DNA of 64,000 bases from assembly GCA_028382965.1 (NCBI GenBank), contig JAOEUK010000004.1:1-64000 (forward strand), read 5' to 3'. The first letter of the stretch is position 1; each line of letters begins with the position of its first letter. The position numbers and the translations under genes are program-made. Under the pieces are notes generated by a model. The model worked only from the letters and a program-made list of their open reading frames with translations, was not told the DNA's origin and ran no database searches. This DNA comes from Candidatus Puniceispirillum sp. Its GTDB lineage: Bacteria > Pseudomonadota > Alphaproteobacteria > Puniceispirillales > Puniceispirillaceae. Below, one piece after another: positions 25,553-50,012 of this stretch.

Positions 25553-25888
25553 GTTTTACGATTCCTTGTTCGAGGTGTAAGACGACTTTTTAGGTCCTAA
25601 GTATACCAATTCATCATAATATTTGGATGCATTAGTAAAAACTACTGAATGATTGCGCTGATACATCAGTTTTGCAACAGCAATCGATATGAGGTATGTA
25701 AACCAGAAAAATTATTTGGTTTTTACTTAACTAAATGACAGTTTTTTGTTTGGCTGGTATCTATGAGCTGAACCACGAAGGGTTGGTATGTTCTTGACTC
25801 TGCGTATGTTTAATCCCTAGCTTAATTCACTATAAACATAAAAAAACTAGGCACAAAAAAAACAGTGCCGATTAAGGGAGAAATTACA
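25553..25888. other. Divergent intergenic region before the peptide ABC operon
   Basis: About 335 bases between oppositely transcribed genes. It should carry promoters for both, and a TTGACT hexamer at 25794 is a possible -35 element, but I cannot place a convincing -10 at normal spacing. No repeat or RNA gene was seen. Confidence 0.4.
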
Positions 25889-27475
25889 ATGAAAAAAGCA
25901 TTAGCAATGATCCTTATGGCAGGATCCTATTTGCTGAGTGGTTTTGCCGCCCATGCCGATAAATCGGGAGGAACGCTGTCATTCTTAGTTCAGCCTGAAC
26001 CTCCGACTCTAGCATCGTATATATCAACATCTGGGCCGATTGGCTTGGTTATGCCAAAGGTGTATGAGGGACTTTTTGATTACGACAATGATGGCAAAAT
26101 GATTCCAATTTTAGCTGAGAGCTATAACATGAGTGCTGACGGAAAAACCGTTACATTCAATCTCCGCAAAGGGGTCAAATGGCATGATGGAAAGCCTTTT
26201 ACATCAGCAGATGTAAAATTCACAGTTATGGAAGTTTTGAAAAAAGTTCATCCACGTGGGCCAAATTCATTTCGTGAGGTTACCGGCATCGAGACACCTG
26301 ATGCAAACACAGCAATTTTTAAATTGAAAAAGCCTGCGCCTTACATGATGCGTTCCTTTGCAGCCTATGAGTCTCCAATTGTTCCAAAACACTTGCTTGA
26401 AGGTACAGATATAAAGTCTGCTCCACTTGCTAACAATCCGGTTGGTACTGGCCCATTTAAATTTGTTGAGTGGAAGAAGGGCCAATATATTCGTTTAGAT
26501 AAGAATAAAGATTATTGGCAAAAGGGTTTGCCTTACCTTGATCGCATTGTTGGGCGTTTTATCCCTGATGCGTCAACACGAACAGCTGCTATGGAAAACG
26601 GTGAGGTTCTTTATGCGGCTTACAATGCGATTCCAAACATTGATGCTGTTCGTTTAAAGGATCGCAAGGATATTGATGTAACTACAGATGGTTATTCAAT
26701 GATCAACCCAATGGCACTTATCGAGTTTAATACCAAAGAAGGACCATTTGTTGACCCAGCCATAAGACGTGCAATATCAGTAGCAATTGATCGCCGTTTC
26801 ATGATTGACACAATTTTCTTTGGTTATGGAAAGCCTGCTACCAGTGCTTTAAGCAGCAACTTTAAGGCAACTAACCTTCATGCTGATATGCCAAATTACC
26901 CTGAAAAGGGAGATAAGGCTGCTGCAAATGCTATGCTTGATAAGGCTGGGTATAAGCGGGATGGCGATGGTGTTCGTTTAAAGGGTGTTCTTGATCTTAT
27001 TCCTTACGGTGAGGACTGGCGTCGTGCTGGCGAATATTTAAAACAAGCCTTAGGTGATATTGGCATCCAGCTAGAGCTACGATATGAGGACGTTCCAACT
27101 TGGTTAAAGCGTGTTTATCACCGCTATGATTTCCAGATGAATGTAAATTACTTCTATCAGCTGCCAGATCCTGTGCTGGGTGTTCATCGCCATTATGGTA
27201 CGGATCAAATCCGTAAGGGCACACACTTTGTGAATTCATCACGCTACAGCAACCCAAGGTTAGATGCGTTGCTTGATTCGGGTGCAGGTGAACCAGATGC
27301 TAAAAAACGCACAGCAGCTTACAAAGAGATTCAACAAATTTTGGCAGATGATATGCCTGTTGTTAACCTCTTCGAATTAGAGTTTCTAGTAGTGTATAAT
27401 ACCAAGCTAAAAGGAGCATATGGCTCTGCGATGGGTGCATATGGATCCTTCAGAGAAGCCTACCTTGACGACTAA
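25889..27475 (+). CDS. ABC transporter substrate-binding protein, family 5 (peptide/nickel type)
   Basis: A 528-residue periplasmic binding protein. Residues 1-24 form a signal peptide (MKKALAMILMAGSYLLSGFA and on). The SBP_bac_5 signatures are AESYNMSADGKTVTFNLRKGVKWHDGKPFTSAD-like (about residues 80-112) and GTGPFKFVEWKKGQY. ATG 25889 follows AGGGAG by 8 bases and is preferred to GTG 25865. Two permease genes and a fused ATPase gene follow. A strong hairpin terminator right after this gene should give excess binding protein. Ligand could be an oligopeptide, amide or glutathione-like compound; the linked amidase favours an amide-bearing solute. Confidence 0.9.
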   Translation: MKKALAMILMAGSYLLSGFAAHADKSGGTLSFLVQPEPPTLASYISTSGPIGLVMPKVYEGLFDYDNDGKMIPILAESYNMSADGKTVTFNLRKGVKWHDGKPFTSADVKFTVMEVLKKVHPRGPNSFREVTGIETPDANTAIFKLKKPAPYMMRSFAAYESPIVPKHLLEGTDIKSAPLANNPVGTGPFKFVEWKKGQYIRLDKNKDYWQKGLPYLDRIVGRFIPDASTRTAAMENGEVLYAAYNAIPNIDAVRLKDRKDIDVTTDGYSMINPMALIEFNTKEGPFVDPAIRRAISVAIDRRFMIDTIFFGYGKPATSALSSNFKATNLHADMPNYPEKGDKAAANAMLDKAGYKRDGDGVRLKGVLDLIPYGEDWRRAGEYLKQALGDIGIQLELRYEDVPTWLKRVYHRYDFQMNVNYFYQLPDPVLGVHRHYGTDQIRKGTHFVNSSRYSNPRLDALLDSGAGEPDAKKRTAAYKEIQQILADDMPVVNLFELEFLVVYNTKLKGAYGSAMGAYGSFREAYLDD

Positions 27476-27486
27476 AAAATATTTGA

Positions 27487-27517
27487 TTGGGCCAGAGCTT
27501 TTCTGGCCCAATTTTTT
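27487..27517 (+). terminator. Intra-operon terminator/attenuator after the binding-protein gene
   Basis: Ten-base-pair stem (TTGGGCCAGA at 27487-27496 with TCTGGCCCAA at 27502-27511), a 5-base loop and six T. It separates the binding-protein gene from the permease genes, a common way to keep binding protein in excess by partial termination. Confidence 0.85.
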
Positions 27518-27554
27518 ATCTTTATATCCAAAGTCTTTCGGACAGGCATATTAA

Positions 27555-28541
27555 ATGACAAGATCCACAAAAATTTTTAAGTATGTCGGCAAACGTTTGC
27601 TGCAAGGCGTGCCAATTATTCTCGCGATTGTTATAATTAATTTTTTTCTTTTAAATTTAGCTGAGGGGGATGCGGTTGACGTGCTCGCTGGCGAGGCTGG
27701 TTCCGCAACACCAGAATATATGGCCCAACTGCGTCAAAAATTTGGCTTGGATCAGCCGCTACCAATTCAGTTAATGGTATATCTTAAAAATGTACTTAGC
27801 CTTGATCTTGGTTACTCCTTTAGGCACGACATGCCAGTGAATGAACTGATTTTTGATAGGTTTGCTGCGACTGGGTTGCTGATGACCAGCACCATCATTC
27901 TTGCTGTTGGATTTGGTGTTCTCTTGGGGTTATTGGCAGCAATGAGACTTAACACGTGGAAAGATGCGGTGATTACAGTTTTTGCTTTAATAACGTACGC
28001 AACACCTCTGTTTTGGGTGGGACTAATGATGATTGTTGTGTTTTCTCTCAAACTTGGTTGGTTTCCAACCAGTGGGATGACAAATGTTGCTGCTTTTTAT
28101 GAAGGTTGGGATTACGTTAAGGATGTTTCGCGCCATCTGGTTCTTCCAACAATCACACTTTCTCTGTTCTATTTAGCTCTTTACACACGTATGATGCGGG
28201 CTTCAATGCTTGAACAATATGGACAGGATTACGTGGTAACTGCGCGGGCAAAAGGCCTCACGGAAAGACGCATTACTTATGTTCATGTTTTACGAAATGC
28301 GCTCTTGCCCGTTGTTACGATGGCAGGTGTTCAAGTTGGTGCATTGATAGGTGGATCCGTAATTGTTGAATCTGTTTTTGCTTGGCCAGGTTTAGGAATG
28401 CTTGCGTTTGAGTCACTCTTTGCAAGGGATCTAAACCTGTTGCTTGGCATTTTTTTGTTATCTTCAATGCTTGTAGTGGCTGTTAACCTAATTGTAGATA
28501 TTATCTATTGTTTTCTTGATCCTCGAATTGAGGTAAATTGA
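27555..28541 (+). CDS. ABC transporter permease, DppB/OppB type
   Basis: A 328-residue inner-membrane permease with six helices. The start KYVGKRLLQGVPIILAIVII is typical of DppB-type subunits, as is GEAGSATPEYMAQLRQKFGLDQPL. The EAA loop near the C-terminus (YVVTARAKGLTERRITYVHV) contacts the ATPase. It is followed by the partner permease after one base and works with it to import the solute bound by the protein at 25889. Confidence 0.92.
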   Translation: MTRSTKIFKYVGKRLLQGVPIILAIVIINFFLLNLAEGDAVDVLAGEAGSATPEYMAQLRQKFGLDQPLPIQLMVYLKNVLSLDLGYSFRHDMPVNELIFDRFAATGLLMTSTIILAVGFGVLLGLLAAMRLNTWKDAVITVFALITYATPLFWVGLMMIVVFSLKLGWFPTSGMTNVAAFYEGWDYVKDVSRHLVLPTITLSLFYLALYTRMMRASMLEQYGQDYVVTARAKGLTERRITYVHVLRNALLPVVTMAGVQVGALIGGSVIVESVFAWPGLGMLAFESLFARDLNLLLGIFLLSSMLVVAVNLIVDIIYCFLDPRIEVN

Positions 28542-28542
28542 T

Positions 28543-29376
28543 ATGAGTGATTTTTGGTCCCGTTATAGAAGAAATTATGCTGCTGTTTTTGGTTTGGCTG
28601 TTGTAGTGCTCATCCTAATAATGGCTTTAACAGCCAGCTTTTTGTACCCTAATGATCCCTTTCGTTTGATTGGTAAGCCTCTTTCCGAGCCGTTTACAAA
28701 TGGGTTTCTTCTTGGCAGTGATTCATTAGGTCGAGATGTTGCTTCTGGCATAGTTCATGGCGCAAAAACCTCTTTGCTAATTGGGTTTGTGGCTACAATT
28801 GTCTCAGTTTTTATTGGTATTTTTTTTGGAGCTTTTGCAGGTTATTTTGGTGGGCGGGTAGACGACATTCTAATGCGTGTCACTGAGATCTTTCAGACAA
28901 TACCGTCCTTTATATTCGCAATTTTGCTTGTTGCAATTATGAAGCCTTCAATAGTCAGCATTGTTATAGCAATCGCTGTTGTCTCCTGGCCTGGCGTGGC
29001 TCGGTTAGTGCGCGGAGAGTTCTTAGCGATCAAAAACCGTGAATTTGTTCAAGCGTGTCATACTCTTGGTATGGGTGATTTCAGAATTATGTTACGAGAA
29101 ATTTTGCCAAATTGTTTGAGTCCTATTATTGTGGTTGGCTCCCTCATGATCGCGACCGCTATATTAATTGAGAGTGGATTAGCATTTTTAGGTCTTGGTG
29201 ATCCGAATATTATGAGCTGGGGATTTTTGATTGGTGCAGGTCGTACAATGTTAAGGTCAGCCTGGTGGGTTTGTACGTTTCCTGGTGTTGCAATTCTGAT
29301 CACTGTACTTGCTATTAACCTAATTGGTGAAGGGCTTAATGATGCACTTAACCCTCGCTTGAAAGAGCGACAATGA
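28543..29376 (+). CDS. ABC transporter permease, DppC/OppC type
   Basis: A 277-residue permease with six helices and the DppC signature LLGSDSLGRDVASGIVHGAKTS (about residues 55-76). The EAA loop is FVQACHTLGMGDFRIMLREILPN. The 3' end overlaps the ATPase start by four bases (29373-29376), so translation is coupled. Together with the preceding permease it forms the transmembrane channel. Confidence 0.92.
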   Translation: MSDFWSRYRRNYAAVFGLAVVVLILIMALTASFLYPNDPFRLIGKPLSEPFTNGFLLGSDSLGRDVASGIVHGAKTSLLIGFVATIVSVFIGIFFGAFAGYFGGRVDDILMRVTEIFQTIPSFIFAILLVAIMKPSIVSIVIAIAVVSWPGVARLVRGEFLAIKNREFVQACHTLGMGDFRIMLREILPNCLSPIIVVGSLMIATAILIESGLAFLGLGDPNIMSWGFLIGAGRTMLRSAWWVCTFPGVAILITVLAINLIGEGLNDALNPRLKERQ

Positions 29377-31004
29377 AACAAAAAATACTCTCAATTGATA
29401 ATTTGTCTATTTTACTTCCTGCTGGTGCGGATCGGCAATATGCGGTTCAGCATGTTGATCTTGAATTGCACGCTGGCGAGACGGTTTGTGTAGTTGGTGA
29501 GAGTGGCTCTGGAAAATCTTTAACGGCACGTGCTGTCATGGGGTTGTTGCCAGCACCACATGTCCGTGTTGCTGAGGGTAGTATCATTTTTGGTGCCGAG
29601 GATATTAGTAAAGTTGACTATGAGCGCTTGCGTGAATTGCGTGGCAGCGAAATATCAATGATTTTTCAAGAGCCAATGACTGCACTAAATCCTGTTATGA
29701 CAATTGGCAATCAAATTGATGAAATCTTCCGATATCATGTTTCAATGTCAGCGAAGGAACGGGTTAAAAAAGCACTTAGTCTTCTTTTTGAGGTGAATCT
29801 GCCTGATCCTGAAAAAATTATTGATGCATATCCACACGAATTGTCTGGAGGTCAACGTCAGCGTTCAATGATTGCTATGGCGCTTGCCCTTGGCCCAAAG
29901 ATTTTGATTGCGGATGAGCCAACTACCGCTTTGGACGTCACAACGCAGGCGCAAATTTTGCAATTGATAAGAGATATGCAAAAACGCCTTGATACTGGTG
30001 TTTTGTTTATCACGCATGATTTTGGAGTTGTTGCTGATATCGCTGACCGTGTGGTGGTCATGCAAGAAGGTAAAATAGTTGAGACTGGCACAGCAAAGCA
30101 AGTCCTTACGAAACCTAAACACTCATACACAAAATCATTGATTGCTGCTATTCCGCGTCTCAAGCCGCGTAAAGCTAGATTGCGGGCTTCAGAAGTGGTG
30201 CTCAGGGCTGAAGGTGTTTATAAATCATTTGGCAGTGGTGGAAGTTTTTTTGGTTTTGGCAAACCGAGTAGGGAGGTGAAAGCTGTTCAAAATGTCCAGC
30301 TTGAATTGCGCCGCGGTGAAACTCTTGGCGTGGTTGGTGAGAGTGGTTCAGGCAAATCAACGCTTGCGCGATGTGTTATCCGTTTGATTGATTGTGATCA
30401 AGGTAAAATTGAACTTGGTGATGTTGATATTACCAAATTAAACCGTAATGAATTGCGCCCCTACAGGAAGCGTATTCAGATGATTTTTCAAGATCCATTT
30501 GCATCCTTGAATCCTCGTATTCGGGTTGGTGACATTATTTCGCAGGGTCCTCTCTTACAGGGTGTAGAGAGACACGATGCTGTTAACCGAGCTTATAAAC
30601 TTTTAGATACTGTGGGCCTTGACCGTAGGTCTTTTGATCGATTTCCACATGAATTTTCTGGTGGACAGCGCCAACGCATTGGCATTGCAAGGGCTTTATC
30701 ACTGAAACCTGATATTTTGGTTGCTGATGAACCAGTGTCAGCGTTGGATGTTTCTATTCAGGCTCAAATTTTACAGTTACTAGATGAAATTCGCACTCAA
30801 ATGGATTTGTCTATGCTGTTTATTACACATGATTTGCGTGTGGCGGCCCAGGTCTGTGATTACGTTGCTGTGATGCAGCATGGAAAGATTGTTGAAATGG
30901 GCCCAACAGCAGAGCTGTTTGTTGCCCCCAAAGACGCCTATACAAAATCGCTCCTGGCGGCTGTCCCAGGTAAAGATTGGCATTTTAGTGAGATTAACAA
31001 ATAG
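29373..31004 (+). CDS. Fused double ABC ATPase (DppD-DppF type)
   Basis: A 543-residue protein with two complete ABC ATPase domains in one chain, as in YejF or GsiA. Domain 1 has Walker A GESGSGKS (about residue 41), signature LSGGQRQRS and Walker B ILIADEP. Domain 2, from about residue 280, has GESGSGKST, FSGGQRQRI and ILVADEP. The two halves normally come as separate DppD and DppF subunits. Each half keeps its Q-loop and H-loop, so both sites should hydrolyse ATP. Start overlaps the permease stop. Confidence 0.93.
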   Translation: MKQKILSIDNLSILLPAGADRQYAVQHVDLELHAGETVCVVGESGSGKSLTARAVMGLLPAPHVRVAEGSIIFGAEDISKVDYERLRELRGSEISMIFQEPMTALNPVMTIGNQIDEIFRYHVSMSAKERVKKALSLLFEVNLPDPEKIIDAYPHELSGGQRQRSMIAMALALGPKILIADEPTTALDVTTQAQILQLIRDMQKRLDTGVLFITHDFGVVADIADRVVVMQEGKIVETGTAKQVLTKPKHSYTKSLIAAIPRLKPRKARLRASEVVLRAEGVYKSFGSGGSFFGFGKPSREVKAVQNVQLELRRGETLGVVGESGSGKSTLARCVIRLIDCDQGKIELGDVDITKLNRNELRPYRKRIQMIFQDPFASLNPRIRVGDIISQGPLLQGVERHDAVNRAYKLLDTVGLDRRSFDRFPHEFSGGQRQRIGIARALSLKPDILVADEPVSALDVSIQAQILQLLDEIRTQMDLSMLFITHDLRVAAQVCDYVAVMQHGKIVEMGPTAELFVAPKDAYTKSLLAAVPGKDWHFSEINK

Positions 31005-31028
31005 GTTTTTAAACGTGTGGTATTTTTG

Positions 31029-32429
31029 ATGTCGAAAACAAAAAATATTGATCCTCTTAATACAATTCACGGGCTTCACAGGAGTTATAAAAATGGTAGC
31101 GCTAAACCCAGTACTGTTGTGCAGAGTTATTTAGAAAAAATAATAAGGCTTAACCCTGTTTTGGGCGCTTATGAGGTGGTTTGGACTGATACTGCAATGG
31201 AGATGGCAGAAGCAGCTGATAAATCTTTCTCGACAGGTTATTTTTCAAACCCTTTTTTGGGAGTGCCATTCGCGTTAAAAGATATCTTCCATGTCAAAGG
31301 CAAAGTTACAACATGCGGTTCCGCTGCGATGCTCGACAATGTTGCAAGCGAAACCTCGATTATAGTTCAGCGGTTGTTCTCTGCTGGGGGAGTTGCTCTG
31401 GGGAAAACCAAGACAGTTGAACATGCTTTTGGTGGATGGGGTACAAATCAAAAAATGGGGACACCAAAAAACCCCTGGGATATGAAAAATCATCGAATCT
31501 CCGGGGGATCGTCGTCTGGCTCTGCGGTGGCAGTTTCATCAGGGATGGCTCCTTGCAGTGTTGGCAGTGATACTGGAGGATCAGTCCGTTTGCCGGCTGC
31601 CTTTTGCGGATTAGTCGGCTTAAAAGTTACAGCTGGACGGTTGCCAACTAAAGGTATTATGCCGTTATCACAAACGCTGGATACTCCTGGGCCGATTACC
31701 CAGACTGTGCTTGATAGTCTGATCATGTTTGATGTTTTAGATGGTCGTGAAGGCTGGAAAATTGCAAAGGATTTAAATAGGGTTGAGGGTATATATGGCT
31801 TATTAAGCAGAGGTGTTTCTGGGCTACAACTTGGCATCTTGTCTGACAAAGAGCGTGAGCATTGCTCATGTGATATTTTAGAATCCTATGACATGGCACT
31901 GGATCGACTGCGGTCATTGGGAGCAAAGCTCGTGCGGTTTGAAAACCCAACCTCGTATGATGGACTGGCTAATGACAATGGGATGATAACGGCGGTTGAG
32001 GCTTTTTATAATCACGGTCAGTTATATAAAAATTTTGATTTGCCAATGGATGAAGATGTCCGTGCTCGGATGCTGGCTGGTGAAAAATTCTCTGCCCATG
32101 AATATTTTAGCACCCTCCAACGCCGTCAAATAATGATTAAAGAATTTGTTGAGTTTATGAGAGGGTTTGATGCATTAGTAACGCCAACCACTATCAGTAC
32201 GGCGCCAGAAATGACTGACGTTGATCAAGCCATTTCACCTGGACATTTCACTCGACCTTTTAATTTTCTTGAGATGTGCGGCCTCTCAATGCCAATTAAT
32301 TTAAGTGAGGAGGGGCTTCCAACAAGTATACAAATTGTTGGAAGGGCCAATGCTGAGGCTATGTGTTTTCGAATTGGTGCGGCCTTAGAAAGAGACTTGC
32401 CACCCATTGGTCAACCTATTTTACATTAA
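31029..32429 (+). CDS. Amidase-signature-family amidohydrolase
   Basis: A 466-residue amidase-signature enzyme. The Ser-cisSer-Lys triad is visible as the lysine in PFALKDIFHVKG, the serine cluster GGSSSGSAVAVSSG and the nucleophile in GSDTGGSVRLPAAFCGLVGLK-like (about residues 175-195). Such enzymes hydrolyse amides to acid and ammonia; relatives include GatA, AtzF and AmiE-unrelated aryl amidases. It follows the ABC ATPase by about 25 bases, so the importer probably supplies its substrate. Start is either GTG 31017 or ATG 31029; neither has a strong ribosome binding site. Its end overlaps the convergent gene by four bases. Confidence 0.88.
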   Translation: MSKTKNIDPLNTIHGLHRSYKNGSAKPSTVVQSYLEKIIRLNPVLGAYEVVWTDTAMEMAEAADKSFSTGYFSNPFLGVPFALKDIFHVKGKVTTCGSAAMLDNVASETSIIVQRLFSAGGVALGKTKTVEHAFGGWGTNQKMGTPKNPWDMKNHRISGGSSSGSAVAVSSGMAPCSVGSDTGGSVRLPAAFCGLVGLKVTAGRLPTKGIMPLSQTLDTPGPITQTVLDSLIMFDVLDGREGWKIAKDLNRVEGIYGLLSRGVSGLQLGILSDKEREHCSCDILESYDMALDRLRSLGAKLVRFENPTSYDGLANDNGMITAVEAFYNHGQLYKNFDLPMDEDVRARMLAGEKFSAHEYFSTLQRRQIMIKEFVEFMRGFDALVTPTTISTAPEMTDVDQAISPGHFTRPFNFLEMCGLSMPINLSEEGLPTSIQIVGRANAEAMCFRIGAALERDLPPIGQPILH

Positions 32430-34543
32430 GATTTCAAAAATTTTTGTATTACATTTTCTAATAATTTTGAAATATTATTATTGAAGTTGTTCCAGGGCAG
32501 TGAACCACAAAATGTGATAGAGCCAGTCGCAAAGACTTGTCCCCCAGAAGCCGTTTGAAAATAAACCATATCGGCTCGTTTCACATCTGCTTCTGGTTTG
32601 CCAGAAAGATTTGTCAGATGGGTAAGAACCTCTTCTGGTACTAAAACAAAGTTGTTTTCCACATCAAAAGATTGTGCGAGAGTGGTGATTTCTAAGCCTT
32701 GATCCAGCTTTTGATCTCTCCGATCAAGCTCAAATCCTGCCGCTCCGTGACCACTGAAACCAAAATTTCCTAGCAAATTTCCATTCACCCCATCAAATAC
32801 CCAGTCAAACTCACTTTCAAAGCATGTTCGTTTATAGGGCATCCCAACAAAGTTAGCTTGTGCAGTAAAGCCTATTCCCACAAGTTGTTGCGGAGGTCTC
32901 CCATTGCGTCGCCACAGGCCCCCATAGTTTCCATCAAAGGCATTGTAATACTCACCTGGTTCAGCAGCCCAGGCACGAAGTCCATCTTCAGAGCGCCTAA
33001 TTTCTAAAATTGTGGGATCCTCAGGATGCCGAGCAATGCGCCAATAAAACCCATTACCTCCTAAGTAAATGAGCCCACCACCATTGTCTCGGTAGTTAGT
33101 CAACGCATCTAGGGTCTTGGAGGTGTGATACTCAGGATGACTGCCAGTCATTATGGTTTTGTAACCAGAAATGGCTGCTAAGCCATCACGGTCTAGTTCG
33201 TCGTCAGTGATAATATCATAAGTTATGTTCTTGTTGTGCAGCCAGGCAATTAAGTGACTGTCGGCTTGAAAATGACGCAGGCCAGAGCAAGTCGACTCAC
33301 CAAATGTTGAAAAGCCTGGCCGAAGGTTGAATAAAACTCGTTTGTGTGAAGCGTGACAAATTCCAGACCCATCAATGTGGTTGTTGTATGTTGATAATCC
33401 ATAATGTGGAAATTGAGATGGATTATTAGGGTAAGCGCCCCAATCTTGAATGCGTTCAAGCCAGGATGAGTTGAAATCTGGCCTGGCATGATTTCCATAA
33501 ATTGTATACGTAAAAGTTGAAACAAGAATACATAAGTCTGATTTATGGGTACCCAAAGGTGGGCAAACAAAAAATGGCATTGCATCATAATGCCCCTCAG
33601 CCTCAATCCGCATAACATATATACCCGATGGCATATCTTTAGGAATTACTAGTTCAAAGTCAGCTTCCCATTCAAAGTCATAAATATCATCTTCATGAAA
33701 ATAGATTGCTGCATAGTGTTCTGGTTTATGCCTCCAACAAAATTCTGTTCCGTCCCATTTGTGCCCTGTAACCCCTCGGGTTGGCGTGTTTTTTAGAAAA
33801 AGGTTTGGGCCGATTTTAGCTTTGACACTGAGCGATTTCATATGTGCTGAGAAATCCCATTGAGCTAGCAAAAACTTATCAACAGAAATTTCCGGTGCTT
33901 CAATTTTTCCATTAAAGCATAGAATTTTTTTACCAAATCCAGCAGCAATTCTGATAGGCGCATCAACTAAAAATGGAAACAATCGACTTACAACAGCTAT
34001 TTCTTTAAGCGCTGTTTTTGTCCCAGTAATTGAACTAATTTTGGGAGTCAAATCAAGAGTTGCAATCCCATGTTCTGTGTAATTAATTTCAACCAGATAC
34101 CATTGATGACATTTTATTTTTTCTGATGATGAAATAGATATGTTGTTTGCTAATTTAGCTTTAATGTACCCGCGGTTGTCTAGAATAATGGAAAAGTCAC
34201 CCCACGCTAATAAAGTTTGATCATTAGCTGTAACTATTGAGGGCATAAAACAAAGTTTTATAGAAATTTCACTCTTTGCTTCTGCCTTAAGGTTTAGATC
34301 GCTTTGGGCAAAAGAACCAGGTGAAAATATTTGATGCCGTGAACAGAATGAAGCTGGCTTAAAGTAATTGCTTGCATCTTCCTCTACAATTCCAGGGCCA
34401 TCTGGATTTGGATCTGCAGAGATGGATCTGCTTAAATTGGCTTTAAAAGATGATGACGCTTGACTGGAGACACAAAATTTTATTGTGTCTCCAGGCCTTG
34501 CAGAGAGCTTATCTGAATATCCTGCTAAAAATGCATCTTTCAT
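32426..34543 (-). CDS. dmfA2: N,N-dimethylformamidase large-subunit-like protein
   Basis: A 705-residue cytosolic protein resembling the large (alpha-2) subunit of dimethylformamidase, which splits dimethylformamide to formate and dimethylamine with a mononuclear iron held by two tyrosines and a glutamate. The conserved core is visible in ARPDFNSSWLERIQDWGAYP, QFPHYGLSTYNNH, GSHPEYHTSKTLDAL and GEYYNAFDGNYGGLWRRNGR. A beta-rich (laminin-G-like) N-terminal half precedes it. The small subunit DmfA1, normally next to it, is absent. The gene converges on the amidase with a four-base overlap. Substrate may differ from dimethylformamide; family membership is firm but function is inferred. Confidence 0.8.
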   Translation of the reverse strand: MKDAFLAGYSDKLSARPGDTIKFCVSSQASSSFKANLSRSISADPNPDGPGIVEEDASNYFKPASFCSRHQIFSPGSFAQSDLNLKAEAKSEISIKLCFMPSIVTANDQTLLAWGDFSIILDNRGYIKAKLANNISISSSEKIKCHQWYLVEINYTEHGIATLDLTPKISSITGTKTALKEIAVVSRLFPFLVDAPIRIAAGFGKKILCFNGKIEAPEISVDKFLLAQWDFSAHMKSLSVKAKIGPNLFLKNTPTRGVTGHKWDGTEFCWRHKPEHYAAIYFHEDDIYDFEWEADFELVIPKDMPSGIYVMRIEAEGHYDAMPFFVCPPLGTHKSDLCILVSTFTYTIYGNHARPDFNSSWLERIQDWGAYPNNPSQFPHYGLSTYNNHIDGSGICHASHKRVLFNLRPGFSTFGESTCSGLRHFQADSHLIAWLHNKNITYDIITDDELDRDGLAAISGYKTIMTGSHPEYHTSKTLDALTNYRDNGGGLIYLGGNGFYWRIARHPEDPTILEIRRSEDGLRAWAAEPGEYYNAFDGNYGGLWRRNGRPPQQLVGIGFTAQANFVGMPYKRTCFESEFDWVFDGVNGNLLGNFGFSGHGAAGFELDRRDQKLDQGLEITTLAQSFDVENNFVLVPEEVLTHLTNLSGKPEADVKRADMVYFQTASGGQVFATGSITFCGSLPWNNFNNNISKLLENVIQKFLKS

Positions 34544-34885: not shown

Positions 34886-35713
34886 CTAGATGTCAAACCC
34901 TTGTTTTCGAATATGATGATCAAACGATAGCCTTTCTTTTTTTGACGTTTGTCGAGCCTTATCATTTGACCATCCGTATGTATCTGAAGAGCCATATTTT
35001 TCTATTTGTCGTTGTGTTTTGTAGGGATTTATTTCTTGCCGGCGCATGTTGTAGTTTGAAATCTTAGCCTCTAGGTTTTTTGTGTCATAAGTATTTTTGT
35101 GCAGGGTAGCAGACATAGGTAAACGTATGCTGATATCAGGCTCTTCATCTGGGTATCCGATGCATAGGCCAGCTAATGGGTAGACACCCTTTGGCATTTG
35201 ACAAAATTCAACCAATTGTTCAGTGATTTCTCTAACTGCACTGATTGGACAGCATCCTAGGCCCACAGCTTCAGCAGCTATAATAAAGTTTTGCAAAACC
35301 ATTGCTGTATCAGTTGCAGTGTTTAAAAATGCGTCGATGGGGCTATGTGCAAAATTAGTTTTGTGCATCTTGCAAACTGATTGAATGCGGTGGCTATCGC
35401 CACAGAAAAGCAAAAGAACGGGAGCTGTTTCGATCCAGGGTATAGACGGAAGTGCACCCTGAATAAAATCACGTGATTGATTTGACTCTAAGTGTATGAT
35501 GCTCACTTGCTGCAAATCAGACTTGCTTGGAGCGGATAAGCTGCAAGCAATAAGAAGCCTCAGAGTCTCTTCAGACACTGTTTTCGTCAGGAATTGACGG
35601 TATGAACGGTGTTGTAATTGTAACCTGTGAGTCTCATTAGCCAATTGTTCTTGATCAACATTTATATGTTCTGCAAATCTTCTTGAAACTAAATCGCTTA
35701 TAGTATGAGACAT
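34886..35713 (-). CDS. Nitroreductase-family FMN oxidoreductase
   Basis: A 275-residue flavoprotein of the nitroreductase fold. LQLQHRSYRQFLTKTV (about residues 25-40) holds the FMN phosphate-binding arginine. The central helix AMVLQNFIIAAEAVGLGCCPIS and the C-terminal GLCIGYPDEEPDISIRLP are family motifs. ATG 35713 is preferred to TTG 35734. Oxygen-insensitive relatives reduce nitroaromatics, quinones or enones with NAD(P)H; this longer form resembles NfsA-type enzymes. The C-terminal 50 residues are polar and unusual. No operon partner. Confidence 0.87.
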   Translation of the reverse strand: MSHTISDLVSRRFAEHINVDQEQLANETHRLQLQHRSYRQFLTKTVSEETLRLLIACSLSAPSKSDLQQVSIIHLESNQSRDFIQGALPSIPWIETAPVLLLFCGDSHRIQSVCKMHKTNFAHSPIDAFLNTATDTAMVLQNFIIAAEAVGLGCCPISAVREITEQLVEFCQMPKGVYPLAGLCIGYPDEEPDISIRLPMSATLHKNTYDTKNLEAKISNYNMRRQEINPYKTQRQIEKYGSSDTYGWSNDKARQTSKKERLSFDHHIRKQGFDI

Positions 35714-35885
35714 GAAAAAATCTTTCTTTTCCAAAATGGCTTCATATGCTCTAAAATTTTTAGCATAGTGATTGAGTAAAACTTAAATTGTAAAGTAGTA
35801 TAGTTTTCATTTGTTTTATTTTAAAATCGTTATTGCGCGCGAACAAATTCTTGCCCTTGCGTTTTTAAGTCATTAAAGTTTATCA

Positions 35886-44418: not shown

Positions 44419-44662
44419 TTCAAATGAGTCCTAATGCTCGTTAGATATTGTGTTCTATCTTTATCAGTCAAAATTATAAAAGTTGAAACCATATATCTTT
44501 AGCTCATGGCCCACCAACACTTAAAGTTCAGTTTGACTGGACTAATGGTTTGCGCATACTTTAAATATTATTCAAATATTACAATTATATAAAAATTACA
44601 CTTAGCAACTGTCTTTATTAGTGAAATAAAAAATTTTCAAGTAAAAAAAATGAGGTGATTTG

Positions 44663-46066
44663 ATGGCTGCAATTGATGAATTAATGGCGTTGCGCAGCTT
44701 ACCTGTGCCAGATAAAACGGAACTAATTTTTTCTGAATCCGATCCTGTTTTAGAGACAAATTTTAAGTTGGCGCAAACTGCTTCAGCTGCTCTGGCCAGC
44801 GTTGGGGTTGCAATTAATGATTTGTGGGAACTTAAAACTGGTCGTAGGCAACGTATTAAAATTGACGCGAGAGCGGCGACAGCTGCATTGCGAAGTAAAA
44901 ACTATTTGCAATCTCGAAATGGAGAGGGTGTGTTTGAAGATCTAACTGATCCAGATCATGAAGCCAACCGGGGTTTGACCGGAATTTATCAAACTAAGGA
45001 TGGGCGGTGGGTGCTTCCTCACTTTGGTCTTGACCATCTGCGTGGCCGCATGCTGAATCTTTTGCAGGCTGAAGCAAATAAAGGGTCGGTGGAGAAAGCT
45101 GTGGCCAAATGGGATGCTTTAGAACTAGAAGGCGCGATGGATGAAGCCTCCGTCTGTGGTGGCATGATACGGACGAATGATGAATGGTTGAGTGAAGCAC
45201 ACGGTAAGGTTTTAAAAGCTAAACCAGTTGTTGAAATTATCAAGGTTGGTGATTCTGACCCAGAGCCAATGCCGGGCGGTGACAGGCCATTATCTGGTAT
45301 AAGGGCACTTGATTTGACTCGGATACTTGCGGGCCCAATTGCAGGAAGAACCCTCGCTGAACATGGAGCTGATGTCCTAATGGTTACAGCACCTAATTTA
45401 CCGCAGGTTTGGCCCTATGTTGTTGATACAAGTCATGGAAAGCGCAGCTGCTTTCTGGACCTACATAAGGACAGTGAAAAGCGATTAATGCTTGATCTGG
45501 TGAAGCGTGCAGATGTTTTCACCCAAGGTTATCGGCCAGATAAAATTAATCAATTGGGTTTTGGGCCAGAGAAGTTGACGAAGGTTCGTCCTGGCCTTGT
45601 CTATGTGTCGATTAGTTGTTACGGATCGGATGGTCCTTTTAGCCATCGCGCTGGTTGGGAGCAGATTGCGCAAATCATGACTGGTCTAGCCGCAGAAGGG
45701 ATCCAAACCTCTTCAGAATACAAACCTAAAACGCTGCCAGCGGCGGCAAATGATTATATTACGGGTTACCTTGGAGCTTATGGAACGCTTTTAGCGCTTG
45801 CACGACGGGCACGCGAAGGCGGTAGCTATCATGTCCGGGTATCATTGTGTCAAACGGCAATGATGATTTATCGGGAAGGTAAAATTATGAACTTACCTGA
45901 AGATTTGAGGCTTAATCTGGCAGAGATTAATGCGCTTCGTGTAGAAACTAAAAGCCACCTGGGAGATATTAGGCATTTGGCACCAGTATTAGACCTTTCA
46001 ATTACACAGCCATACTGGGCTTTGCCTACACCAGAACTTGGATCGAGCAAGCCAATATGGGTCTAA
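44663..46066 (+). CDS. CaiB/BaiF-type (family III) CoA-transferase with permuted domain order
   Basis: A 467-residue protein. The second half (from about residue 207) begins with the segment that normally opens family III CoA-transferases, GIRALDLTRILAGPIAGRTLAEHGADVLMV-like. It continues through GQ-like SISCYGSDGPF to AAANDYITGYLGAYG, where Asp 364 is the likely catalytic aspartate that forms the CoA thioester. The first 200 residues match the usual C-terminal region (LTGIYQTKDGRWVLPH). The order is therefore swapped relative to Frc or CaiB. ATG 44663 (after GAGGTGA) is preferred to the TTG just before. Substrate unknown. Confidence 0.8.
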   Translation: MAAIDELMALRSLPVPDKTELIFSESDPVLETNFKLAQTASAALASVGVAINDLWELKTGRRQRIKIDARAATAALRSKNYLQSRNGEGVFEDLTDPDHEANRGLTGIYQTKDGRWVLPHFGLDHLRGRMLNLLQAEANKGSVEKAVAKWDALELEGAMDEASVCGGMIRTNDEWLSEAHGKVLKAKPVVEIIKVGDSDPEPMPGGDRPLSGIRALDLTRILAGPIAGRTLAEHGADVLMVTAPNLPQVWPYVVDTSHGKRSCFLDLHKDSEKRLMLDLVKRADVFTQGYRPDKINQLGFGPEKLTKVRPGLVYVSISCYGSDGPFSHRAGWEQIAQIMTGLAAEGIQTSSEYKPKTLPAAANDYITGYLGAYGTLLALARRAREGGSYHVRVSLCQTAMMIYREGKIMNLPEDLRLNLAEINALRVETKSHLGDIRHLAPVLDLSITQPYWALPTPELGSSKPIWV

Positions 46067-46531: not shown

Positions 46532-48145
46532 TTACAGCTCACGAAGTGCATTGAATTGATCAACATAACCACTGGGGTCAATTTTCACACCAATGACTGT
46601 AGTTTCATTACTCTTTAGTGCATGCTCAAGGGCTGAAGAAAGTGTGGCTTCGTTATCGACAGTGGTTCCATTTGCTCCCAACCCCCGGGCAAGGTACTCC
46701 CAGTTAATGCCACCAAGATGCACTCCATAAGGATCAATGCCCTTGATGGTTTGCTTAGTTCGAATCAAGCCAATTTCGCCATCATCAAAGACAAGGATAA
46801 TAATTGGTAGCTTTTCAATTACTGCAGTCTGAATATCGGCGACAGCCATCAACAACCCACCATCACCAGTAAAAGCAATTACTGGCCGATTTGGATGGGC
46901 CAATCGTGCGGCGAGAGCGCCAGGAATAGCGAACCCCATTGAACCAAGTCCATTTGAGGTCAAAAACTCTCTAGGACCATAACTTTCCCATTTTTGCACG
47001 ACCAACAGACGGCTCGCACCAGCATCACAAGTTGCAATAGTATCACGCGGTAACACCTGTCTAGCACATTCAACAGCACGTTGAGGTGACAGGCCTAAAG
47101 ATGGGGTTTCTAACGCTTTATGAACTCGCTCCCGAAACTTCTTGGCCGCATTAATTCCCCACCCAGAACCCTCTGGAATGAGCGTACAGATGACCGTAGT
47201 TATATGATTAAGATTACCAACAACTTCTTCAACAGAGGGAACCAGGCCATCAAGTGATGGTATATTTGCAAGCGATAAAACTTTAGTAGAGTATGGCCAT
47301 CCCTTGGGTTGCAACTCGACCGCATCAAGCCCAATGGTAATAATCAAATCAGCTTTGGAAACCAGATCACGCTCGATCAATCCGCCAATGATGCAACCTG
47401 CGCGCAGTGGATGGTCTTCTGGAATTGCACCCTTGCACTTGGACGTGGTTAGCACAGGAGCGCCAAGATGTTCCGCTAATGCAATTGTTGAGAAACTAGC
47501 TTTATCCCAGAGTACTCCAAGCCCAATCAATAGAACGGGTTTTTCTGCAGCTTTTAATACAGCCACTGCACTTTCAAGTCCACGTGGATCAGGAATTGGA
47601 TAATGGTAATTTGGCAACAAGTTTGGCAAATTTTTGGCTAACCCAGAAATTTTTTTTGTTTCACTTTGTGGTAAGTCAAAATGCACTGGGCCCGGTGCAT
47701 AAGCAGTACAAATGCGAATAGCACGTCGCAATTGCTGTCTAACAACGCTGGCCTCAATTGCAGTTGACCACTTAACAAGAGGTTGCATTATTGCTTGTTG
47801 ATCTAGACGCTGACGCAACCCTATCTCCTGTTCAGGCGCTGAGTAACGATCAGTGATAGCAATCAATGGAGCGCGGTCTAAAAACGCGTGTGCAATGCCG
47901 TTAACCATGTTAGTGGCGCCAGGCCCCCGAGTTGACAGGCAAACCCCTGGATTGCCTGTAATTTCACCCCAAGTTGACGCCAGCATGGCTCCAGCAACTT
48001 CCTGTTTCATTAAAATAAACCGCATCCCCTGCGCTCTCATTGCCTCCATTAATTCAACCGATTCACCGCCAGGATGTCCCACAACAAAAGGGGTTCCCAT
48101 TTCCTTAAAAGCTGCGGCCATTTCTTCAACAGTTGTGGTTTCCAT
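46532..48145 (-). CDS. Thiamine-diphosphate enzyme, acetolactate-synthase/2-oxo acid decarboxylase type
   Basis: A 537-residue member of the same broad family as the first gene in this window but only distantly related. The cofactor-activating glutamate is in LMKQEVAGAML (E49). The C-terminal PP motif is FTGDGGLLMAVADIQTA with FDDGEIGLI in place of the usual NDN. The middle NAD/FAD-like domain is present. It lies downstream of the TctCBA operon, separated by about 290 bases, so its substrate may be a 2-oxo acid or a product of the imported solute. The reaction could be carboligation or decarboxylation; I cannot decide. Confidence 0.82.
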   Translation of the reverse strand: METTTVEEMAAAFKEMGTPFVVGHPGGESVELMEAMRAQGMRFILMKQEVAGAMLASTWGEITGNPGVCLSTRGPGATNMVNGIAHAFLDRAPLIAITDRYSAPEQEIGLRQRLDQQAIMQPLVKWSTAIEASVVRQQLRRAIRICTAYAPGPVHFDLPQSETKKISGLAKNLPNLLPNYHYPIPDPRGLESAVAVLKAAEKPVLLIGLGVLWDKASFSTIALAEHLGAPVLTTSKCKGAIPEDHPLRAGCIIGGLIERDLVSKADLIITIGLDAVELQPKGWPYSTKVLSLANIPSLDGLVPSVEEVVGNLNHITTVICTLIPEGSGWGINAAKKFRERVHKALETPSLGLSPQRAVECARQVLPRDTIATCDAGASRLLVVQKWESYGPREFLTSNGLGSMGFAIPGALAARLAHPNRPVIAFTGDGGLLMAVADIQTAVIEKLPIIILVFDDGEIGLIRTKQTIKGIDPYGVHLGGINWEYLARGLGANGTTVDNEATLSSALEHALKSNETTVIGVKIDPSGYVDQFNALREL

Positions 48146-48431: not shown

Positions 48432-50012
48432 TCAACTAGTAATCTTTTTAGCTTTCGACATTGAACCAAATATACGAAACCCTACCACAAGCACTCCAAT
48501 TATCAGGAATATTGGTGCATAAGAAAACTTGTTTTGATACTCAAAACTGAAGAACATCCAAATGCCATTATCTGAAATAATCATAGATTGCCGGAAAGCT
48601 TCTTCCATACTTGAAGTTAAAACAAAGGCAATGATGAAAGCTGCAGCAGAGAAATTCGTCCGACGCATTCCATACCCTATTACCCCAAAAAGAAGTGCGA
48701 ATCCGACATCCCATATTGAAGCGCGAGATGAATAACTCGCTGCCAAGGAAATCATAAAAATTACTGGATATAAATACTGAGTCGGTAAGTAGGATATTAA
48801 ACGTCCAATTATTGGAGCCATAAAATAACCGATGATACCGTAACATGCAATCCCGAGAAGGCCAGCTGCAAAAATACCAAAAATGAACTCACGAGGACTA
48901 ATCAGTTGTCCCCCCATAAACAGAGGTGGCTCGGTTGCAAAAATCTGTGGGCCTACCTGCAATCCGTTGACTAGAAACATTCCAATCAAAACAGCAGCTA
49001 TGGTTGAACCAGGAATACCAAGGGTCAATAGCGGAATCATTGATGGTCCCGAGACTGCATTATTAGCTGATTCAGGGGCGGCGATACCTTCGACCACACC
49101 TGTTCCCCACTTGTCCTTATTTTTTGCGCGGCGCTTTTCTTCACCATACGCCACAAAACACGCAACTGAGGACCCGAGTCCGGGCATCATGCCTATCAAA
49201 GACCCATAAATTGAGGATCTAAACATTAGAGGAAGACAACGTTTGAACTCTGGCCAAGTAAAATAATGTGCAGTCGGGTCATCAATTTTATTTGCGTCCA
49301 AATCAATCATTTTGACCTTGGCAGCTTTCTCTGCCTGAATGATCACCTCAGAAATAACAAAAACACCAATTAAAAGAGGTACTAATGCCATTCCAGATTC
49401 AAGCTCATCAATGCCCATCGTCATCTTAAATTGACCAGTGATAGTGTCTTCGCCAATCAGTGCAACAGCTGCGCCAAATAATGTCGATATAATACCTTTG
49501 ATCACACTATCACTCACAACTGAACCAATGACTACGAAGGCCATAAGGTAGATTGCAAAGTTTTCGGGAGGGCCAAATTTCCGTGTAAATGCTGCAATGG
49601 AAACAGCACCAAAAATTAGAATTATTTCACCAAAGTAATCACCAAATACTGAGGATACGGTTGCAGTTTTAAGAGCTTTTCCCGCACGTCCAGATTGTGT
49701 CATCGGATAGCCGTCTTGCATGGTAGCTGCCGAGGCAGCAGTTCCCGGAGTGTTAAATAATATAGCGGCAATTGAACCACCATATCTCCCAGATTTACCC
49801 ACAACATAGAGAAATGCCAAACCTGCCAGGCCACCAATCTGGTCATTATAGGCTATAAGGATTGGTAACATCATAGCAATGGCGGCTGCGGCGGTTAGAC
49901 CAGGCAAAGCGCCAAATACAATCCCTACAAATGCTGCCAGAACAACAAAATAAATTGCATATTGATCACTAAAAAGGGTGTCAAATCCACCAATGATATC
50001 TGTAAAAATCAT
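48432..50012 (-). CDS. tctA: Tripartite tricarboxylate transporter large permease TctA
   Basis: A 526-residue membrane protein with about twelve helices. The TctA hallmark GLTAAAAIAMMLPI and FLYVVGKSGRYGGSIAAILFNTPGTAASAATMQDGYPM-like region (about residues 35-105) is plain, as is GLGSSVACFVAYGEEKRRAK. With TctB and the periplasmic TctC it forms a Na+- or proton-coupled high-affinity carrier for carboxylates such as citrate. Its start follows tctB by about 6 bases. Confidence 0.92.
   Translation of the reverse strand: MIFTDIIGGFDTLFSDQYAIYFVVLAAFVGIVFGALPGLTAAAAIAMMLPILIAYNDQIGGLAGLAFLYVVGKSGRYGGSIAAILFNTPGTAASAATMQDGYPMTQSGRAGKALKTATVSSVFGDYFGEIILIFGAVSIAAFTRKFGPPENFAIYLMAFVVIGSVVSDSVIKGIISTLFGAAVALIGEDTITGQFKMTMGIDELESGMALVPLLIGVFVISEVIIQAEKAAKVKMIDLDANKIDDPTAHYFTWPEFKRCLPLMFRSSIYGSLIGMMPGLGSSVACFVAYGEEKRRAKNKDKWGTGVVEGIAAPESANNAVSGPSMIPLLTLGIPGSTIAAVLIGMFLVNGLQVGPQIFATEPPLFMGGQLISPREFIFGIFAAGLLGIACYGIIGYFMAPIIGRLISYLPTQYLYPVIFMISLAASYSSRASIWDVGFALLFGVIGYGMRRTNFSAAAFIIAFVLTSSMEEAFRQSMIISDNGIWMFFSFEYQNKFSYAPIFLIIGVLVVGFRIFGSMSKAKKITS

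Follow-up and report, generated by a model that had tools for sequence, protein, structure and literature searches.

A gene on the reverse strand of the window (the whole 64,000-nucleotide stretch of DNA that was analysed), from the genome of a marine SAR116-type bacterium (genome completeness 99.6%), encodes a protein of 705 amino acids related to the large subunit of N,N-dimethylformamidase (DMFase). Its sequence score, fold match and tree position all place it with N-acetyl-(R)-beta-phenylalanine acylase. We propose that it is a single-chain and probably iron-dependent acylase, which would hydrolyse imported N-acyl amino acids (probably carboxylate-bearing) or similar amides. The kind of enzyme is already known. 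A search of the accessible literature found no paper characterising its marine, importer-linked branch and none on N-acetyl-(R)-beta-phenylalanine acylase. The gene and its neighbours are as follows.

25865–27475, forward strand: ABC substrate-binding protein, family 5 (Opp/Dpp/opine type), from a domain search
27555–28541, forward strand: ABC permease, OppB/DppB type, from domain and NCBIfam searches
28543–29376, forward strand: ABC permease, OppC/DppC type, from domain and NCBIfam searches
29373–31004, forward strand: ABC ATPase, a single chain carrying two nucleotide-binding domains (two ABC_tran stretches)
31017–32429, forward strand: amidase-signature amidase (PF01425), from a domain search
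32426–32429, no strand: TTAA, the overlapping convergent stops of the amidase (forward) and DMFA2-like (reverse) genes, read from the sequence
32426–34543, reverse strand: stand-alone DMFA2-like (PF20254) hydrolase gene, 705 amino acids, ATG start, intact ORF

The importer genes (25865–31004) and the amidase gene meet the DMFA2-like gene tail to tail, as the initial annotation had described, and the 4-nucleotide overlap is also found in three related loci (L002, L003, and L004). With its binding protein and two permeases encoded in a row with the double ATPase, the importer resembles those of the Opp/Dpp type, although the binding protein falls under the cut-off of every NCBIfam model that it matched (0/11). 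Its nearest solved relative by sequence is AgaA (179 bits). A nitroreductase-family gene at 34886–35734 was rejected as a member of the unit; matches turn up in 3 of 57 loci and never adjoin the enzyme gene.

The 705-residue protein scores 302 bits against PF20254 (DMFA2_C; gathering cut-off 27) and is the sole PF20254 match in its own genome, while a search of NCBIfam returned no family at E 0.001. Gene decay was rejected in view of the intact ORF and of active-site residues kept across genera. Among PDB sequences the best match is the acylase (8huy; 532 bits), and the DMFase large subunit scores 347. The predicted structure (mean pLDDT 78.5, pTM 0.84; weak, with pLDDT of about 50 or less, around R354, Y386, 415–421, 518–531 and 631–648) matches both enzymes over the whole chain. 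Fold comparison with acylase 8i5a_B gave a VIA Z of 42.9 (rmsd 2.5, 676 aligned residues) and Foldseek TM values of 0.89/0.86, with DMFase close behind (VIA Z 40.2–40.8). By fold match the domains are Ig-like, pentraxin-like and ThuA-like, names taken from PMC7686228.

The tree was built from 60 long rows representing 55 loci, plus the query and the acylase; it omits DMFA2 genes shorter than 600 amino acids (L062, L086, and L087) and five identical copies. One side of a branch with 100/100 support holds 46 rows without detected DmfA1, the DMFase small subunit, including both the query and the acylase, although the acylase is represented by a catalytic part of 490 residues, which the tool flags as long-branched and deviant in composition. 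In its catalytic half the acylase has 44% identity to the query and 43% to the two-subunit sequence L060, and by identity alone it is no closer to the query. The grouping is thus based on the tree and on branch-typical residues rather than on identity. The initial annotation had named the protein an orphan dimethylformamidase large subunit and a subunit acting alone an unusual form. Neither description is supported, as PF20254 occurs in 28 of 101 genomes (its own and those of relatives at ranks from genus up to order; 0/14 control genomes), and the protein belongs to a clade that lacks DmfA1 in the sampled loci and includes the structurally solved acylase, which is a precedent for a large chain without DmfA1.

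DmfA1 itself had no match at E 0.001 in the genome with either a 3-row or a 9-row profile, and none was found among window ORFs of at least 30 amino acids in six frames (best E 5.3), in agreement with the initial annotation, which had reported no adjacent small subunit and had proposed a search for one elsewhere in the genome. The 3-row profile detects the subunit in 3 of 101 genomes, none of them among its rows, and the 9-row profile detects two divergent fused copies excluded from its rows. No DmfA1 was present among ORFs of the fetched flanks of the 44 clade loci, although for a few, such as L017, the upstream DNA is short or missing. Outside the clade it lies directly upstream in 10 of 11 sequences, the exception being L093 from Rhodococcus, a long-branch sequence which has no detectable DmfA1 and yet falls outside. 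In the PDB, six DMFase entries contain a DmfA1 chain, against 0/3 acylase entries (8huy, 8i59, and 8i5a).

The conserved core noted earlier is borne out by alignment. The DMFase two-Tyr/one-Glu iron-site residues, whose loss would have spoken against the initial annotation, are all kept, at the following codons (positions computed from the ORF).

33497–33499, reverse strand: Y349, aligned to DMFase iron ligand Y399
33386–33388, reverse strand: Y386, aligned to DMFase iron ligand Y440
33131–33133, reverse strand: E471, aligned to DMFase iron ligand E521
33137–33139, reverse strand: H469, aligned to essential DMFase residue H519 (role from PMC7686228)
33053–33055, reverse strand: N497, aligned to DMFase active-site residue N547

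The iron-site residues are kept in 46/46 rows of the stand-alone clade, save one X in the Y399 column. The acylase carries 19 of 20 branch-typical residues, which were picked from 46 rows that include the acylase itself. R354, N387, R423, H424, D537, and H642 are invariant in the stand-alone branch, whereas the two-subunit rows carry other residues at these positions (residue counts omit L093), and R354, R423, and H642 are among those common to query and acylase. The likeness to the acylase thus covers whole-chain fold, clade and iron-site residues, at only about 44% catalytic-half identity. The Paracoccus enzyme DmfA1A2 (6lvb and others; pAMI2) likewise shares its large-subunit fold and iron-site residues, including the essential His, with the query, which differs in its position across the 100/100 branch, in having no detected DmfA1, and in residue T641 in place of F693. 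In DMFase this Phe is a gate that comes from the partner subunit and makes the pocket narrow (PMC7686228). The position is T or S in 46/46 clade rows; as F is present in only 3/10 two-subunit rows, it is a weak criterion for a two-subunit DMFase. Together with T641, the six invariant residues would fit a substrate larger and more acidic than dimethylformamide (DMF).

The importer arrangement recurs in relatives. Orthologous importer genes are near the enzyme gene in 19 of the 44 clade loci, with convergent order in 16, co-directional order in L008 and L057, and divergent order in L022; L062 also has the importer, but is not counted because its enzyme is shorter than 600 amino acids and was left out of the tree. 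TRAP-cluster genes are near the enzyme in 9 further loci, and 16 of the 44, some on short contigs, have neither importer cluster. PF20254 is present in 16 of 17 related genomes with a binding-protein orthologue (matches of 40–41% in G026 and G032 were not counted) and in 18/18 of those with an amidase orthologue (at least 52% identity; 18 of 101 genomes), these being raw counts over genomes which share ancestry and physically linked genes. In three genomes (G003, G014, and G015) the amidase orthologue accompanies PF20254 with no binding-protein match at the orthologue threshold, and in L057 and L063 no orthologous amidase goes with the importer. Because the arrangement recurs, it is more than chance, and the importer-enzyme link is real. 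In two-subunit relatives a DmfA1 domain is fused to an ABC permease, an independent tie of the superfamily to import. The neighbours vary by subclade (Opp ABC, TRAP, TauD-type dioxygenase, TPP enzyme), and therefore substrates may differ. In Palleronia and Roseomonas, aminotransferase genes adjoin the acylase-type genes, which is compatible with an amino-acid product; however, aminotransferases, amidases and importers adjoin two-subunit genes too, so that such neighbours are not diagnostic of the stand-alone branch.

In the proposed pathway, the importer would bring in a small compound with an N-acyl group or another amide bond, and probably with a carboxylate. In the cytoplasm, presumably, a single-chain DMFase-superfamily member of the acylase branch, working without DmfA1, would then bind a single metal ion, iron judging from homology, through Y349, Y386, and E471; this mononuclear centre, together with H469 and N497, would activate water for amide hydrolysis. 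Along with the amidase-signature enzyme, the DMFA2-like enzyme would release an amine or amino acid and an acid for use as nitrogen and carbon. The recurrent link with an importer and an amidase is consistent with the amide-scavenging module suggested by the initial annotation.

It is unlikely that the protein is instead a true formamidase without its small subunit, acting on DMF, N-methylformamide or N-formyl compounds as the Paracoccus DMFase does. The iron-site residues are identical to those of DMFase, and a Sulfitobacter relative has acetamidase/formamidase and formate/nitrite transporter genes within 10 kb; however, the acylase is the higher-scoring match and the tree partner, the residue at the F693 position differs throughout the clade, with the reservation given above, and a binding-protein-dependent importer of peptide/opine type seems an improbable route for DMF. 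Moreover, the DMFase large subunit produced alone is inactive (PMC7686228). DMF and other formamides are thus not favoured as substrates, given a clade shared with the acylase and without DmfA1 in the sampled loci. Slightly less probable still is that N-acyl sulfonates, or other sulfonate or D-amino-acid derivatives, take the place of plain N-acyl amino acids as substrates. A PLP-enzyme cluster lies at most six genes away in 8 loci, TauE-type genes occur in clusters 17 (5 loci) and 26 (3 loci), and TauD-family genes adjoin the enzyme in gammaproteobacterial loci L012, L018, and L020. The best NCBIfam model for the PLP-cluster representative L062 is CuyA D-cysteate sulfo-lyase, but the match (301 bits) is below the cut-off of 450, and the best match to that gene in the query's own genome (56%) is on another contig (C35), outside the window. 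TauE and TauD are broad families, and clusters 17 and 26 count one contig twice (L016, L085).

The inactivity of the isolated DMFase large subunit could also mean that a second protein is needed which, being unrelated to DmfA1 in sequence, would escape its profile. This is improbable, as transporter and enzyme genes aside no directly upstream ORF of at least 60 amino acids recurs past close relatives, and the acylase entries have no DmfA1 chain. Least probable of all, by a little, is that the importer-amidase genes and the DMFA2-like gene are chance neighbours with separate functions. The genes are convergent in this window, not one operon, and the enzyme is found elsewhere without this importer; against this, the importer loci counted above span three orders, L008 has all six genes on one strand, and PF20254 accompanies nearly all binding-protein orthologues. 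A single-chain acylase linked to import remains our preferred reading.

PMC10308929 lists an N,N-dimethylformamidase with the metabolic genes found in flotillin-associated rhodopsin clusters. The SAR116 study PMC12262181 describes a nickel/peptide transporter for almost every subclade and makes no mention of amidase, formamid-, acylase, oligopeptide or organic nitrogen; the main text of PMC11801797 contains no relevant mention. Many such proteins bear the database label 'N,N-dimethylformamidase beta subunit family domain-containing protein'. The label points to the breakdown of a solvent by one half of an enzyme, but the evidence is of an entire branch that lacks the small subunit in the sampled loci and, in marine bacteria, is linked to importers of nutrients. 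If that is right, the annotation would be corrected, and there would be a testable route by which amide-bound nitrogen is scavenged at sea with a rare iron site. The stand-alone branch is a natural comparison for the role of DmfA1 in true DMFase. Tentatively, we speculate that widespread ocean bacteria (SAR116 and, via TRAP-linked relatives, SAR11 and roseobacters) may share an uncharacterised import-and-deacylate system, in which a dedicated importer would feed a single-chain two-Tyr/one-Glu iron acylase able to cleave those N-acyl (R)-, D- or beta-amino acids that form part of dissolved organic nitrogen.

The open reading frame (ORF) first listed below is a real gene, and its product is best read as a stand-alone enzyme of the N-acetyl-(R)-beta-phenylalanine acylase branch, located in a recurrent import module, and not as half an enzyme. 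This kind of enzyme is already known, and the product of the present locus is a further member.

32426-34543 (-): DMFA2-like ORF, 705 aa, PF20254 at 302 bits
25865-32429 (+): family-5 binding protein, two permeases, double ATPase and amidase

It is the sole PF20254 gene of its genome (2.38 Mb, 39 contigs, completeness 99.63%). This family is present in 28 of 101 genomes (this one and its relatives) and in 0 of 14 control genomes. The nearest loci in the collection scan (L002-L004, 72-73% identity) are all from alphaproteobacterial MAGs, one of them a Candidatus Puniceispirillum, which makes SAR116 the probable affiliation of the host. Two homologous copies are broken into two ORFs each, by sequencing error or a real break, at L023:10001-12122 (86 and 612 aa) and, at a contig end, L086:17834-19999 (246 and 378 aa).

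By score, the closest solved relative is the acylase (532 bits), as against 347 bits for the large subunit of N,N-dimethylformamidase (DMFase). A structure predicted from a 22-row alignment (mean pLDDT 78.5, pTM 0.84) superposes on the acylase with Z 42.9 (rmsd 2.5, 676 residues) and on DMFase with Z 40.2-40.8. Plain identity to the acylase is about equal for the present protein (44%) and the two-subunit homologue L060 (43%). In a tree of 57 rows built on about the last 480 residues, the protein, the acylase (a row with a warning for its branch length and composition) and others, 46 rows lacking a detected DmfA1 small subunit, are grouped together by a branch with 100/100 support. On the opposite side are 11 rows, with DmfA1 directly upstream in 10; for the remaining one, L093, which has a long branch, none was detected. 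In this unrooted tree, loss of DmfA1 in the stand-alone branch would look the same as gain elsewhere. Two order-level relatives, G071 (L077/L086) and G074 (L068/L087), each carry a stand-alone-type gene, a fragment in G074, plus a DmfA1-paired one.

The initial annotation described an orphan large subunit without DmfA1. Using 3-row and 9-row profiles (reference sequences from pAMI2, pAMI5 and a Burkholderia plasmid), no DmfA1 was detected anywhere in the genome at E 0.001. With either profile, DmfA1 was found in 3 of the 101 genomes, each time directly upstream of a divergent DMFA2 gene; none of these matches was a row of the 3-row profile, and two were rows of the 9-row profile. The latter recovered two divergent fused copies excluded from it (E 6e-27 and 3e-20), and its sensitivity is therefore fair. 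For the 44 stand-alone loci, the search covered the fetched flanks. Production of the DMFase large subunit without the small one is described as yielding inactive protein (PMC7686228). The DmfA1 chain is present in six DMFase PDB entries and in none of the three acylase entries (8huy, 8i59, 8i5a), so that a large chain without DmfA1 has a solved precedent. The lack of a detected DmfA1 thus stands, and the reading as half an enzyme gives way to the grouping with the solved acylase branch.

In the Paracoccus DMFase, iron is bound by Y399, Y440 and E521, and H519 is essential (PMC7686228). The aligned ligands here are Y349, Y386 and E471, while H519 and N547 correspond to H469 and N497; the loss of tyrosines and glutamate that had been considered is thus not seen. 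These iron-site and active-site residues are conserved throughout the 46 stand-alone rows, save one X in the Y399 column. Residues invariant in all 46 and absent from two-subunit rows include R354, N387, G421, R423, H424, A526, D537, H642 and T677, as compared against 10 two-subunit rows, three of them gapped at R423. DMFase F693, contributed by the partner subunit, narrows the pocket (PMC7686228); its counterpart is T641, and Phe occurs in only 3 of the 10 two-subunit rows. We offer as a hypothesis that the pocket may be roomier and able to bind an acidic substrate, since pLDDT is ~50 or lower around R354, Y386, 415-421, 518-531 and 631-648.

The arrangement in which the enzyme gene faces an importer and amidase, pointed out initially, recurs. 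At least one importer gene of at least 50% identity lies within the fetched flank of 19 of the 44 stand-alone loci, convergent with the enzyme gene in 16 (overlapping by 14 nt in L063), co-directional in L008 and L057, and divergent in L022. In 18 of the 19 the importer adjoins the enzyme gene, or nothing but the amidase or a short ORF stands between them; L057 has an intervening molybdopterin oxidoreductase gene. One strand of L008 (Anderseniella) holds the binding protein, permease, ATPase, amidase and enzyme genes. Nine more loci (L006, L007, L009, L010, L023, L056, L066, L078, L080), including all four labelled Pelagibacteraceae, have TRAP-cluster genes at most three genes away, and 16, some on short contigs, have neither. 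The TRAP large-permease ORF overlaps the enzyme gene start in the SAR11 loci L006, L007, L010 and L023; L066, L078 and L080 are from SAR116 relatives.

Across the 101 genomes, a binding-protein orthologue (at least 83% identity) occurs in 17, 16 with PF20254, the exception being a partial match in G082; all 18 genomes with an amidase orthologue (at least 52%) have PF20254. The Fisher p values, which ignore ancestry and linkage, are 2.8e-10 and 3.5e-13, respectively. The pairing of the enzyme with the importer is the more secure one, because L063 and L057 have the importer and lack the orthologous amidase.

In two loci of the two-subunit branch, a branched-chain-type ABC permease carries DmfA1 as its C-terminal domain, with DMFA2 directly downstream.

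L095, 3290-4948: Rhizobium sp. AB2/73 plasmid, 552 aa, permease 133-395, DmfA1 466-551
L068, 3447-4994: order-level relative G074, 515 aa, permease 94-355, DmfA1 407-513

The fused protein is matched over at least 80% by 26 plasmid records, and over its whole length in 15 of 15 among the matches listed. This fusion links the superfamily with import on the two-subunit side, and may tether the enzyme to its importer.

DMF use by P. aminophilus depends on dmfA1-dmfA2 of pAMI2, and the related pAMI5 pair is not tied to DMF use in that account (PMC4543880). On pAMI2 (L054:6096-6359), a PLSDB-predicted 'AAK-1 beta-lactamase' within an annotated IS3 transposase gene is probably a false call. An N,N-dimethylformamidase is named among the genes of marine rhodopsin clusters (PMC10308929). 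A limited literature search found no dedicated paper on the acylase and no characterisation of the marine branch. Elsewhere in the window, three neighbouring genes are perhaps a carboxylate (oxalate?) unit.

44660-46066 (+): CoA-transferase III
46532-48145 (-): TPP enzyme
48432-50012 (-): TctA-type transporter

An M20 enzyme (hydantoinase/carbamoylase family) lies near the module in L063, L072 and L079; the L079 copy, the one scanned, has a best model named allantoate amidohydrolase. Aminotransferase genes adjoin homologues in Palleronia (class III) and Roseomonas ('aspartate aminotransferase family'). In the genome under study, an M20 homologue (60%) and a PLP-enzyme homologue (56%) lie on contigs other than that of the window, the latter on C35. 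A PLP enzyme is also near the module at L062:8098-9126 and seven other loci; the best NCBIfam model for the L062 copy is CuyA D-cysteate sulfo-lyase (301 bits; cut-off 450). By association, the acylase branch, importer, amidase-signature enzyme, nearby M20 and adjoining aminotransferases suggest amino acids with an N-acyl or N-carbamoyl group, or related amides, as candidate substrates. Some of these neighbours are also present in two-subunit relatives, and the neighbours change in other stand-alone subclades (TauD, TPP enzyme, GMC oxidoreductase), so that substrates probably differ between relatives.
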